Of a stretch of DNA of 64,000 nucleotides, positions 18,697-58,916 are shown piece by piece; positions within the stretch are counted from its first letter, which is position 1, and each line of letters starts with the position of its first letter. Both the position numbers and the translations under genes were made by a program. The notes beneath the pieces were generated by a model that was given only the letters and a program-made list of their open reading frames with translations, did no database searches and had not been told where the DNA came from. The stretch is from Konateibacter massiliensis (GTDB taxonomy: Bacteria; Bacillota; Clostridia; Lachnospirales; Lachnospiraceae), in contig NZ_LT860098.1 of assembly GCF_900184995.1 (NCBI RefSeq), positions 563,001-627,000 of the forward strand, written 5' to 3'.

Positions 18697-18814
18697 AAAG
18701 CGGACAAGTCCGCATCAACTCCCTAATCCCTCACTTATAAGGGACTTGGCTGCTTTGTCGCGCCGAATGCAGTCACGTAGTGACATCTTCCGCTTGCATT
18801 CGTGCGCATAAATA
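18697..18814. repeat. Composite intergenic repeat, copy A
   Basis: Left module: AAAGC and CAAGTCC pair at a distance with GGACTTG and GCTTT. Right module (18760-18810): GCGC, CGAATGCA, hairpin GTCAC-gta-GTGAC, linker ATCTTCCGCT, TGCATTCG, T, GCGCATA. It is about 70 percent identical to copy B on the left and nearly identical on the right. The adjoining palindrome TGAAACATTGTTTCA (18815-18829) could belong to the element or be an operator. Confidence 0.85.
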
Positions 18815-18886
18815 TGAAACATTGTTTCAAAAAACAACTTTCTTTTCTCTTTTTCTGAAACAGCCCGTCAAAACCGTCTCAAATCA

Positions 18887-22721: not shown

Positions 22722-22840
22722 AAAAGCAGACAAGTCTGTGTCAGCTCTAACTCTCTACTCATAAGGGGACTTGTCTGATTTTTTTGCGCCGAATGCAGTC
22801 ACGTAGTGACATCTTTCCATTTGCATTCGTGCGCATAATA
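22722..22840. repeat. Composite intergenic repeat, copy B
   Basis: Left module: CAGACAAGTC pairs with GACTTGTCTG and ends in a seven-T run, so it is terminator-like on the plus strand. Right module (22786-22837): GCGC, CGAATGCA, GTCAC-gta-GTGAC, linker ATCTTTCCATT, TGCATTCG, T, GCGCATA. It lies between the MFS start and the CarD gene end. Confidence 0.85.
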
Positions 22841-22842
22841 TT

Positions 22843-22890
22843 TTTTATATCATAGGAAATTGCAAAGCAATTTTCTATGGTATAAAAAAA
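22843..22890. repeat. TATAGCATAGGAA-type palindromic repeat, copy 1
   Basis: Two complementary arms read TTTTTTATATCATAGGAAA and TTTTCTATGGTATAAAAAA, around TTGCAAAGCAA. It directly follows composite repeat copy B and its A-run overlaps the T-run of the CarD terminator. It closely resembles the hairpin at 42951-42999. Confidence 0.75.
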
Positions 22891-22920
22891 GAGCGCAAAT
22901 CCAAATCTGGATTTACGCTC
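22891..22920 (-). terminator. Terminator of the CarD-like gene
   Basis: On the minus strand GAGCGTAAATCC pairs with GGATTTGCGCTC (one mismatch) and is followed by seven T residues. Confidence 0.85.
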
Positions 22921-23000
22921 TTGCTACTCGACTTTTAATACTTTATCATATTTTTAAATTTTTTTCAATCATTTTAGTATCGGTGTAATGTAGGCTGCTT

Positions 23001-23522
23001 TTACTCATTTCTTTCGTCTTGCTTTTTCTCCAGAAATTCTTGAATATATCCGCCTACCTCATCCTTGTCTATACCAAGGACGACAGCCATCTCTCCGTAT
23101 AGCTTTTCCTCTGCCATATGGAAATAGCGTTCATCTACCATCGTTACCTTTTTTCCGTCCTCTTCACGCTGCTTTTTCCTAGAATGCAGCGTCTTGATAA
23201 TCTGTATTAATTTACGGCAATCACAGCTGCTTATGGCATTTTTGTACTCCTGCTCCCGCCCTCTTTCATCCGCAATCCACATAGGCTCTAAATCAGGCAA
23301 ATCACCAAGCAAATCTGTTATCTCTTCTTTTGTCATAGCATGGCGGATAAATACTTTTTTATTATCTACGGGAACAAAAACCTTGCCATTGGTATCATAA
23401 ATGGGTATCAGCGTATAATAAATCCTGTTATTTGTCATACTGCTCAACTTTAGCTGTCCTACATCCTCCACCTTGCATATTCCATTGTTTCCATACACAA
23501 CCGTATCGCCAACCTGAAACAT
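23001..23522 (-). CDS. CarD-like transcriptional regulator
   Basis: A 173-residue protein beginning with the RNA-polymerase-interacting CarD/TRCF domain (about 1-60): FQVGDTVVYGNNGICKVEDV and YYTLIPIYDTNGKVFVPVDN. The C-terminal part (about 70-170) is helical, charged and contains KTLHSRKKQREEDGKKVTMV, as in CarD proteins. In mycobacteria and myxobacteria such proteins stabilise open promoter complexes; in clostridia they are common but less studied. The ATG at 23522 is preferred to a TTG two codons upstream because AAGGAG is 7 nt away. It is a single-gene unit with its own promoter and terminator. Confidence 0.92.
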   Translation of the reverse strand: MFQVGDTVVYGNNGICKVEDVGQLKLSSMTNNRIYYTLIPIYDTNGKVFVPVDNKKVFIRHAMTKEEITDLLGDLPDLEPMWIADERGREQEYKNAISSCDCRKLIQIIKTLHSRKKQREEDGKKVTMVDERYFHMAEEKLYGEMAVVLGIDKDEVGGYIQEFLEKKQDERNE

Positions 23523-23636
23523 ATTCAATCTCCTTTACTTTCTATCCTGCAAAAACGTTTAAAGTTTCCTTCTTCTCCTACCCATCTGCCGTAAATTTTC
23601 CTTCCTCTTTTATGAGATTTTTTCTAGCTATATTCT

Positions 23637-42950: not shown

Positions 42951-42999
42951 TTTTTTATAGCATAGGAAGTTCGGAGAACTTTCCTATGCTATAAAAAAA
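42951..42999. repeat. TATAGCATAGGAA-type palindromic repeat, copy 2
   Basis: TTTTTTATAGCATAGGAA and TTCCTATGCTATAAAAAA are complementary, with GTTC/GAAC inside and a one-base bulge. It lies between the start of the binding-protein gene and the SleB-like gene, and its A-run doubles as the T-run of that gene's terminator. It matches the hairpin at 22843-22890 at most positions. Confidence 0.75.
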
Positions 43000-43027
43000 G
43001 ACCATTCTGCTCATGAGTAGAATGATC
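43000..43027 (-). terminator. Terminator of the SleB-like gene
   Basis: On the minus strand GATCATTCTACTCA pairs with TGAGCAGAATGGTC (two wobble pairs), followed by seven T residues. Confidence 0.85.
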
Positions 43028-43053
43028 TCTTTAATATTTAATCTTAATCTATT

Positions 43054-47638: not shown

Positions 47639-47665
47639 AGTTATTCACCCTTATAATTTTATGAA

Positions 47666-47740
47666 AAGTGTGAGTTTCGCTCACACTTCGCGCCCGAGCG
47701 GGTTGCGAAGCAACAACTTCCACTCCGCGAGGTGCGCATA
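47666..47740. repeat. Composite intergenic repeat, copy C with altered stems
   Basis: A left hairpin AAGTGTGAG-tttcg-CTCACACTT (47666-47688) is followed by the right module (47690-47740): GCGC, CCGAGCGG, GTTGC-gaa-GCAAC, linker AACTTCCACT, CCGCGAGG, T, GCGCATA. Every module has the same length as in copy A, but the stem sequences differ: the inner hairpin stays fully paired and the outer 8-bp stem pairs at 6 of 8 positions. Confidence 0.8.
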
Positions 47741-47748
47741 GATAGCTT

Positions 47749-47778
47749 TTATCATAAAAAATTTTCTATGATATACAA
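47749..47778 (-). promoter_or_regulatory. Candidate ktrB promoter inside a palindromic repeat remnant
   Basis: On the minus strand TTGTAT (47778-47773), 18-bp spacer, TGATAA (47754-47749). The same bases form TTATCATA/TATGATAT arms that look like a shortened TATAGCATAGGAA-type repeat. Transcription from here would put repeat copy C in the ktrB leader RNA. Confidence 0.4.
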
Positions 47779-58418: not shown

Positions 58419-58784
58419 ATGACAGATAAGCAGTGGTTATACTGGATGGAAAAAGGTTCAAAACTCGGATGTCACCAGATGCCTGAGAGGAGTTTTTTCT
58501 ACAAAGGTTATCAATTCCCGGTATGTGCAAGATGTACCGGGGTTATTTTGTCTGCAATTTTAGCGAGTGTTGTGTTTATAAAGAAAAGAATTCCTATTCG
58601 GTATTGCTTGCTGATGTCCGGAGTTATGCTTACGGATTGGGGCCTTCAGTATGCCCAGATATGTGAGTCTACTAATCGAAGAAGATTTATAACCGGGATG
58701 ATTGGTGGATTTGGGTATTCTACTTTGCACTTGTATTTTTATAGATATTTGGTTGGGAAGATTTGGGGGTTGGTGAAAGAGTAG
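58419..58784 (+). CDS. DUF2085 membrane protein
   Basis: A 121-residue protein of the DUF2085 family, recognised by GCHQMPERSFFYKGYQFPVC followed by ARCTGV, which gives a Cys/His cluster, and by a short segment TDWGLQY in the membrane region. About three membrane helices. The start is 2 nt after the zinc-ribbon stop codon. Function is unknown; the cysteine pattern suggests metal binding at the membrane. Its stop codon is followed within 2 nt by the truncated repeat copy at 58786-58814. Confidence 0.82.
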   Translation: MTDKQWLYWMEKGSKLGCHQMPERSFFYKGYQFPVCARCTGVILSAILASVVFIKKRIPIRYCLLMSGVMLTDWGLQYAQICESTNRRRFITGMIGGFGYSTLHLYFYRYLVGKIWGLVKE

Positions 58785-58785
58785 G

Positions 58786-58814
58786 GACGTCTTCCACTTG
58801 CATTCGTGCGCATA
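58786..58814. repeat. Composite intergenic repeat, truncated copy D
   Basis: Only the 3' half is present: GAC of the inner hairpin, linker GTCTTCCACT, TGCATTCG, T, GCGCATA. It begins 2 nt after the DUF2085 stop codon; the 5' half that would pair with it is missing. Confidence 0.75.
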
Positions 58815-58916
58815 AATAGTTTGCAGTTTCCTGTAATCATGACCACCCGTTTGATGAAGGGGTGCTTTATATTTCGCACGCTTCGCGTGCTCAACAGGGT
58901 CACGACCCATAACAAA

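Follow-up and report, generated by a model that had tools for sequence, protein, structure and literature searches.

Genomes of Lachnospiraceae and related bacteria carry a family of hairpin-built repeats, about 130-190 bp in length, whose copies reach more than 100 per genome. The copies usually abut intrinsic terminators, have an orientation linked to the replication fork, are absent from relatives at the loci examined and form bursts of near-identical sequence. The hairpin repeat is probably itself mobile. It came to attention in a stretch of 64,000 nucleotides (the window) from a genome of Konateibacter massiliensis, designated G000 here, in which a first-pass annotation had described two intergenic copies of a composite repeat. 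The family seems to be undescribed so far as judged from the literature searched, which gave no description of a repeat of this kind from Lachnospiraceae or Butyrivibrio; one paper on REP sequences gave no match for clostridial terms (PMC3733652).

The two copies that had been reported share the layout ascribed to them: their positions (18697-18809 and 22722-22836), the stem pair and the predicted fold were all confirmed, and the family proved to be larger than was noted. The pair CGAATGCA...TGCATTCG (gap at most 30) occurs twice in the window compared with no occurrence in 100 shuffles, and copies 1 and 2 fold with z scores of -4.60 and -4.36, respectively, a stability equalled by none of 200 shuffles. 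The left stems of the two copies differ in bases yet pair, as had been claimed, which is seen in both the sequence and the folds. Two details required correction. The linker given as shared was CTTCC, of which TTCC is common to both copies, whereas copy 2 reads CTTTCC. The interval assigned to the repeat ended short on the right, as copy 2 runs into a long palindrome that is followed by a terminator. The features of the window are listed in Table 1.

Table 1. Copies of the element, their modules and adjoining terminators in the 64,000-nucleotide window.
Feature	Position in window	Strand	Basis and remarks
Copy 1 (A-type), left long hairpin module AAAGCGGACAAGTCC...GGACTTGGCTGCTTTG	18697..18757	+	Sequence, folding; module recurs in other G000 copies
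Copy 1, core GCGC-CGAATGCA-[GTCAC gta GTGAC]-ATCTTCC-GCT-TGCATTCG-T-GCGCAT	18760..18809	+	Sequence, folding, model R1 (match G000:C6:581760-581809, E 4.9e-11; copy 1 itself among the R1 building sequences)
Copy 1, short unrelated palindrome TGAAACATTGTTTCA at the place of the right palindrome of other copies	18815..18829	.	Sequence
Copy 2 (A-type), left long hairpin module, different yet paired bases CAGACAAGTC/GACTTGTCTG	22722..22785	+	Sequence, folding
Copy 2, core module, linker CTTTCC	22786..22836	+	Sequence, model R1 (match G000:C6:585786-585836, E 3.4e-10; copy 2 also in the R1 alignment)
Copy 2, right palindrome TTTTTTATATCATAGGAAATT-GCAAAGC-AATTTTCTATGGTATAAAAAA	22841..22889	.	Sequence; module recurs in other copies
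Intrinsic terminator of CarD family gene (23001-23528, minus strand); T-tract flush against element	22890..22921	-	Sequence
B-type copy, overall span	47664-47773		
B-type copy, left hairpin AAAAGTGTGAGTTTCGCTCACACTT	47664..47688	+	
B-type copy, core GCGCC-CGAGCGG-[GTTGC gaa GCAAC]-AACTTCC-ACT-CCGCGAGG-T-GCGCAT	47690..47739	+	Model R1 (match G000:C6:610690-610739, E 3.1e-12; copy also in the R1 alignment)
B-type copy, right palindrome, decayed	47750..47773	.	
Truncated A-type core, 3' part only	58781..58818	+	
Solo right palindrome	42951..42999	.	Terminator-like hairpin directly after (43000-43029)

The order of the modules is fixed in the copies that were read with their flanks and runs from a left hairpin through a core to a long palindrome on the right, of the form TTTTTATATCATAGGAAATT-n-AATTTCCTATGATATAAAAA; some copies have a small hairpin resembling GGCACGAAGTGCC between core and palindrome. 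The core, which bears the signature GCGC/TTCC/GTGCGCAT, is made up of GCGC, an 8-bp stem, a nested hairpin, an unpaired TTCC, the returning stem, a bulged T and GCGCAT. Most cores belong to type A, marked by CGAATGCA and GTCAC, or to type B, marked by CCGAGCGG, GTTGC and a tandem G-A mismatch; there are rarer types besides, and a C-GA-G tandem mismatch is widespread across cores though not universal. Three unrelated stems are common in the left hairpins of G000, namely the long AAAGCGGACAAGTCC type, GTGTGAGC/GCTCACAC and GAATGTGC/GCACATTC. Not every copy has all of the modules, and the palindrome is detectable in 83 of the 123 G000 copies. Predicted folds for one copy each of Butyrivibrio P18, a genome from another family (G107) and the rumen metagenome-assembled genome (MAG) RUI469 give the same series of hairpins, the small hairpin included, with z scores for the printed strand of -5.3, -6.2 and -4.7, respectively. 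The two reverse strands that were folded were as stable relative to shuffles (z of -5.8 and -6.8), and the reverse strand from G107 folded without the core. Longer variants with one or two extra hairpins at a single point between the core stem and GTGCGC were observed in P18 (L306-L309) and in rumen MAGs (L186, L226).

Searches of G000 and of related genomes with covariance models built from the copies, as the first-pass annotation had proposed, revealed further copies. BLASTN found 43 matches in the whole of G000, the weakest three of which are opposite-strand pieces inside listed copies. A pattern describing the architecture gave 47 matches compared with none for the reversed pattern, and one of the 47 (L037) is probably due to chance. 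The core model R1, built from 32 of these 47 matches, found at least 136 matches at E<=1 and at least 123 at E<0.005 in G000, both of which are lower bounds from the scoring of 150 of 1194 candidates; the 123 are used in the counts that follow, and the 13 of 136 with E>0.005 were dropped. R1 had matches in 12 of 116 genomes, G000 included, with at least 51 in G001 and one in G002, a genome of the same genus as G000. The cross-genus model R2, built from 37 selected cores, matched 48 of the 392 genomes searched within the order, again with G000 included, across three families; matches in the third (f11) are weak (E of 2e-5 to 8e-5), and clear copies are present in at least two families. A scan of named sequences returned at least 99 stretches, and the 80 listed among them belong to Lachnospiraceae bacteria, Butyrivibrio, Eisenbergiella, Herbinix or [Clostridium] aminophilum. 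Butyrivibrio, Eisenbergiella and Herbinix are Lachnospiraceae in the taxonomy, and [Clostridium] aminophilum is presumably one as well. A pattern scan of viral contigs, which used a B-like pattern only, gave no match. Butyrivibrio proteoclasticus P18 had 46 BLASTN matches, many with 97-100% identity and some being pieces of one copy, while G107, which is in one contig, had 26 model matches at E<=0.1. P18, RUI469 and G107 each possess their own set of similar copies, and the sequences differ between the sets while the architecture is the same.

In the sense of the gene, the order at the target is the gene, its own terminator hairpin, the T-tract and then the reverse complement of the element. 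A scripted test placed a terminator directly against the right edge for 24 of the 26 P18 copies used (17 of 425 random points) and for 24 of the 25 copies taken in from the 26 of G107 (23 of 375 control points), and against the left edge for none of the copies of either genome. Terminator abutment exceeds 90% in these two amplified sets. In G000, 52 of the 83 copies with a detectable palindrome had a terminator at the right edge (26 of 498 control points), and 31 had a palindrome without a terminator call. The rate at control points was 4-6% across the three genomes, which differed somewhat in the edge slack allowed but each had its own control.

Orientation follows the replication fork. With the leading strand of G000 assigned from gene direction and GC skew, 102 of the 123 copies run opposite to the leading strand (p 6e-14) and 21 run with it. 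The same bias is present where the direction of the genes cannot explain it, as 19 of 24 copies between convergent genes (19:5) and 12 of 14 between divergent genes (12:2) are opposite to the leading strand, or 31 of 38 when pooled (p = 1e-4). Of the 76 copies flanked by co-directional genes of the leading strand, 63 point in the direction opposite to those genes. Contig C7 of G000 holds both the terminus, at 0.492-0.649 Mb, and the origin, at 2.670-2.703 Mb; the exact places are immaterial because none of the 123 copies is inside either interval. In G107, where local GC skew was used, 25 of 26 copies are opposite to the leading strand.

At two occupied sites that were compared, relatives lack the element. 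The gap in G001 and G002 that corresponds to the site of the window's B-type copy does not contain it; the intergenic DNA has diverged, which blurs the breakpoints. In P18 a copy stands behind a gene that was named clpX-like by eye; none of the eight relatives that match there has this copy, as read in their DNA, and one of these relatives keeps AGACATAATTAAAG followed by a terminator. No target duplication was found at the clpX-like site. The left A-run of the P18 copies hardly varies, while the right A-run changes with the host, and the two differ in length and interruptions, which is why no target duplication is seen by eye in that genome. The ends of the P18 element, also by eye, are TAAAAAAG... 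and ...GATAT beside the host A-run. A classical DDE-type MITE was rejected, as neither terminal inverted repeats nor a target-site duplication could be seen by eye.

Changes among the copies that were random with respect to pairing had been named in advance as grounds for giving up the proposed repeat, and the changes instead follow the pairing. For 32 G000 cores the covariation score was 0.429 compared with 0.173 for shuffled data; none of 500 shuffles reached it, and slid versions scored at most 0.151. For the 37 selected cross-genus cores the corresponding values were 0.402, 0.153 and at most 0.146. Fifteen of 17 core pairs changed on both sides across genera, and pairing persists. Other features of the hairpins are signs of copying at the level of DNA. 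The tips of left hairpins occur on the same stem in both orientations in G000 (TTT 11, AAA 7), and inverted tips are found in G107 as well (CAAG 8, CTTG 6); such inversions are rarer in recent bursts (1 of 29 in P18, 1 of 14 in RUI469). Within the inner arm of the palindrome, departures from the consensus have a matching letter in the other arm 11 times out of 12 in P18, where copies are near-identical, and 64 times out of 73 in G000. The match is weaker for the outer A-run next to the host, where the inner arm matches 3 of 4 such departures in P18 and 20 of 38 in G000. In the copies compared, which were 58 of the 123 in G000 and 25 in P18, the arms match copy by copy above permuted pairs to about position 10 and to positions 7-9, respectively. 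Copying of the outer arm from the host at insertion was considered and set aside, since the inner arm in the RUI469 burst is constant by eye while the host side varies and the A-run match is weak; correction within the hairpin is the safer reading. Covariation alone is no proof of RNA because self-templated copying of DNA hairpins could yield compensatory changes without selection.

The core triloop, by comparison with the tips, keeps its strand. In the 76 of 123 G000 copies with an intact hairpin, the loops are GAA (23), AAA (11), GTA (9) and GCA (6) in type B and GTA (14), GCA (3) and ATA (3) in type A; GAA, AAA, GTA and GCA recur, seven further loops occur once each, and the reverse complements of the common loops are absent. 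Mismatches across genera are strand-biased, with 17 G-T and 4 A-C on the printed strand of the 37 cores (p 0.007). Among the resident copies of G000 the picture is mixed, with G-T:A-C counts of 80:47 for the outer helix, whose constant GCGC stem contributes 22:21, and of 15:31 for the nested hairpin. We read this pattern in the sequences as suggesting that the active form is recognised as the folded printed strand and that resident copies decay.

Of the options that had been offered for the repeat, namely a structured RNA, a REP/MITE-like DNA element or a protein target, the REP/MITE-like one is favoured by the high copy number, the lineage-specific bursts, the absence at corresponding sites of relatives and the preferred target, although the element is neither a standard MITE nor a REP of the usual kind. 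With moderate confidence, the element is taken to be a non-autonomous mobile element that moves through a folded single strand and inserts at terminators in an orientation fixed by the fork. We infer that it moves at all; it would enter at the T-tract that immediately follows an intrinsic (Rho-independent) terminator, the right palindrome coming to lie next to that terminator, possibly by way of a single-stranded, folded intermediate at the replication fork. An enzyme acting in trans may read the core hairpin (the GCGC stem with its bulged T, the short strand-specific loop and the unpaired TTCC) and carry the element. Guide-like pairing might occur between the A/T-tract of the target and the T-run at the base of the right palindrome, which is the weakest step, the 20 of 38 matched A/T-run deviations in G000 lending it weak support. 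The leading guess for the class of enzyme is a Y1 HUH (IS200/IS605-type) transposase, a class favoured because the sole Y1 protein found in G000 is an IS200 transposase that agrees with the element in target and orientation.

Non-autonomous derivatives of the IS200/IS605 family, a family that makes no target duplication, are named PATEs. It is possible, though doubtful, that the element is in a narrower sense a PATE-like derivative moved specifically by the resident IS200 TnpA. The Y1_Tnp (Pfam) proteins found in G000 are eight copies of one IS200 transposase and none else. All eight IS200 copies (L061-L068) are directly downstream of an intrinsic terminator, as the element is, and the six whose leading strand is certain are aligned with it, which is the same orientation relative to the fork as that of the element; the other two (0.504 and 0.525 Mb) fall within the terminus interval and would agree only with a terminus situated between them. 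Two of the eight are wedged between a terminator and an element, and one P18 IS200 (L315) adjoins a long-variant copy, but the shared target alone would give such adjacency. IS200-type Y1 proteins are present in G000, G001, G002, G005 and G116, and when 665 ORFs within 1500 nt of copies were clustered, IS200 TnpA (two genomes) was the sole mobile gene recognised among recurrent neighbours. The end hairpins of the G000 IS200, however, bear no resemblance by eye to the element. Across 23 Y1 loci of other genomes no element core was found with a pattern that can miss long variants and missed the copy at L315, and among the Y1 genes of nine genomes no locus had element-like ends, these being read by eye in 9 of the 23 and by pattern only in the rest. 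A search of nine genomes gave no Y1 transposase in three carriers (G004, G118 and G120), although multicopy IS elements are often lost from draft genomes. RUI469 (G117) had two weak Y1 matches only, one of which is a RAYT-like gene that has palindromes of its own. Finally, the strand that bears the wobble tolerance is the printed one, which in the geometry of the fork conflicts with the lagging-strand template that IS200/IS605 uses. Two further observations concern Y1 genes. An A-run just 5' of the left-end hairpin of the G000 IS200 could pair with the T-tract target, and the RAYT-like Y1 genes of rumen MAGs, L320 (G119) and L317 (G117), have short flanking palindromes of their own (GGGGACGGTCCTATTGTCCTC and similar) that are unlike the element.

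A more tentative and rather unlikely reading is that the elements form a separate class of non-autonomous elements that recognise intrinsic terminators, insert next to them and use a single-strand route coupled to the fork other than the lagging-strand-template route of IS200/IS605. The printed strand would be the folded one, either as single-stranded DNA of the other strand or as reverse-transcribed RNA, and the hairpins would be rewritten by self-templated copying. If this were true, structure rather than sequence would be inherited across bacterial families.

It is improbable that the copies are functional structured RNAs, for example 3'-UTR elements or small RNAs, kept at each locus by selection, with the covariation reflecting RNA function. 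The strong covariation, the very stable folds and the excess of G-T over A-C mismatches on the printed strand across genera would all fit such RNAs. The window, however, has no Rfam match above gathering threshold, which also sets aside known Rfam RNAs, and five weak matches around copies at E<=5 are all far below gathering scores. The loci examined are not conserved, the element being absent in relatives, with one model match in G002. Of the copies among co-directional leading-strand genes, 63 of 76 run against the genes; 40 of 123 are without a detectable palindrome; the constant stems of resident copies decay evenly on both strands (22 GT, 21 AC); and the two orientations of the left-hairpin tips are a sign of hairpin copying in DNA.

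Little likelihood is given, likewise, to a SINE-like route in which an RNA of the printed strand, ending in the hairpin and A-run, is reverse transcribed from the 3' T-tract at the terminator in the manner of group IIC introns. Terminator targeting and priming by the fork are also properties of group IIC and endonuclease-minus introns (PMC4424553), and the strand marked by wobble and triloops is the printed one. Yet just two reverse transcriptase (RT) genes passed the search in G000, L145 (G000:C7:866537) and L146 (G000:C7:311086). The best NCBIfam match of both is the group II intron RT/maturase model, at 144 and 112 bits compared with a cut-off of 300, and no Rfam intron RNA was found near either. 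L145 has a bAvd-family neighbour and, by eye, an endolysin-like gene nearby. The bAvd family is a mark of diversity-generating retroelements, and L145 appears to be a phage-borne one. Movement driven by an RT was rejected on these grounds: both RTs are far below the intron-RT cut-off, one is beside a bAvd gene, and no intron RNA is near. A group II (IIC) intron was rejected as well, with no Rfam intron match in the window, around copies or at the two RT loci and with the RTs below the cut-off. A host-functional DNA site rather than a selfish element, such as a fork-oriented signal for chromosome organisation or replication, would account for the strand-biased distribution over the replichores but is very improbable given the near-absence in G002 of the same genus, the patchy distribution (48 of 392 genomes), the independent bursts with different sequences, the decay of resident copies and the terminator targeting.

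The preferred reading, that of a non-autonomous element moving as a folded single strand, places the repeat near several known systems. IS200/IS605 elements and their derivatives have hairpin ends and a fork-linked orientation, and the G000 IS200 has the same T-tract target. The orientation expected of an IS200/IS605 derivative was found in 102 of 123 copies in G000 and 25 of 26 in G107, whereas end hairpins shared with an autonomous element were not found in a comparison by eye with the G000 IS200. The element differs further in having more hairpins and in that, judging by its wobbles, the strand that folds is the one facing the lagging-strand template. REP, BIME and REPIN sequences with RAYT (TnpA-REP) are described as high-copy, intergenic and hairpin-forming, and their movement is attributed to a Y1 HUH enzyme that probably acts in trans (PMC6006769). 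The element shares the first three properties. REPs, however, are given in another source as palindromes of 20-40 bp with GTAG and CGTC tags (PMC3733652), while the element is a multi-hairpin unit of fixed order. A REP/RAYT system as usually defined was rejected, as no RAYT was found in G000 (the Y1 genes found there being the eight IS200 copies only) and the RAYT-like gene of RUI469 has other palindromes.

Pneumococcal BOX, RUP and SPRITE are small interspersed repeats, of which BOX is modular and SPRITE terminator-like; the terminal inverted repeats of BOX and RUP are similar to the ends of IS elements, and BOX has boxA, boxB and boxC modules with terminal inverted repeats like those of ISSpn2 (PMC3049150). 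The element is likewise a small interspersed repeat of low-GC Gram-positive bacteria. In a comparison by description it differs from BOX and RUP in that no terminal inverted repeats were seen and in that its target is a pre-existing host terminator. Group IIC introns insert at intrinsic terminators, and endonuclease-minus introns are primed by the replication fork (PMC4424553). Insertion at terminators is common to these introns and the element, which differs in its length of about 130-190 bp, in having no intron RNA match and in that no G000 RT is above the intron-RT cut-off. By analogy, the element may work like a REP, BOX or PATE repeat, that is, as a small, non-autonomous, hairpin-rich, intergenic unit. 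With IS200 it shares only target and orientation, and we file it among the bacterial interspersed mobile repeats.

The family would offer a natural system for studying how terminator hairpins and the replication fork jointly attract mobile DNA, the terminator target being common to IS200 here and to group IIC introns elsewhere. It also carries a warning that covariation in multicopy bacterial hairpins could come from the copying of DNA hairpins and need not mean a functional RNA.

Two minor observations come from the window. At 42951-42999 a right palindrome adjoins a terminator with none of the other modules present, so it can occur alone. Beside the truncated copy, positions 58838-58915 hold a remnant that resembles both ends of the G002 IS200 (ACCACCCGT...; GGGTCGTGACCCTGTTGAGC) and may possibly be an IS200-derived miniature.
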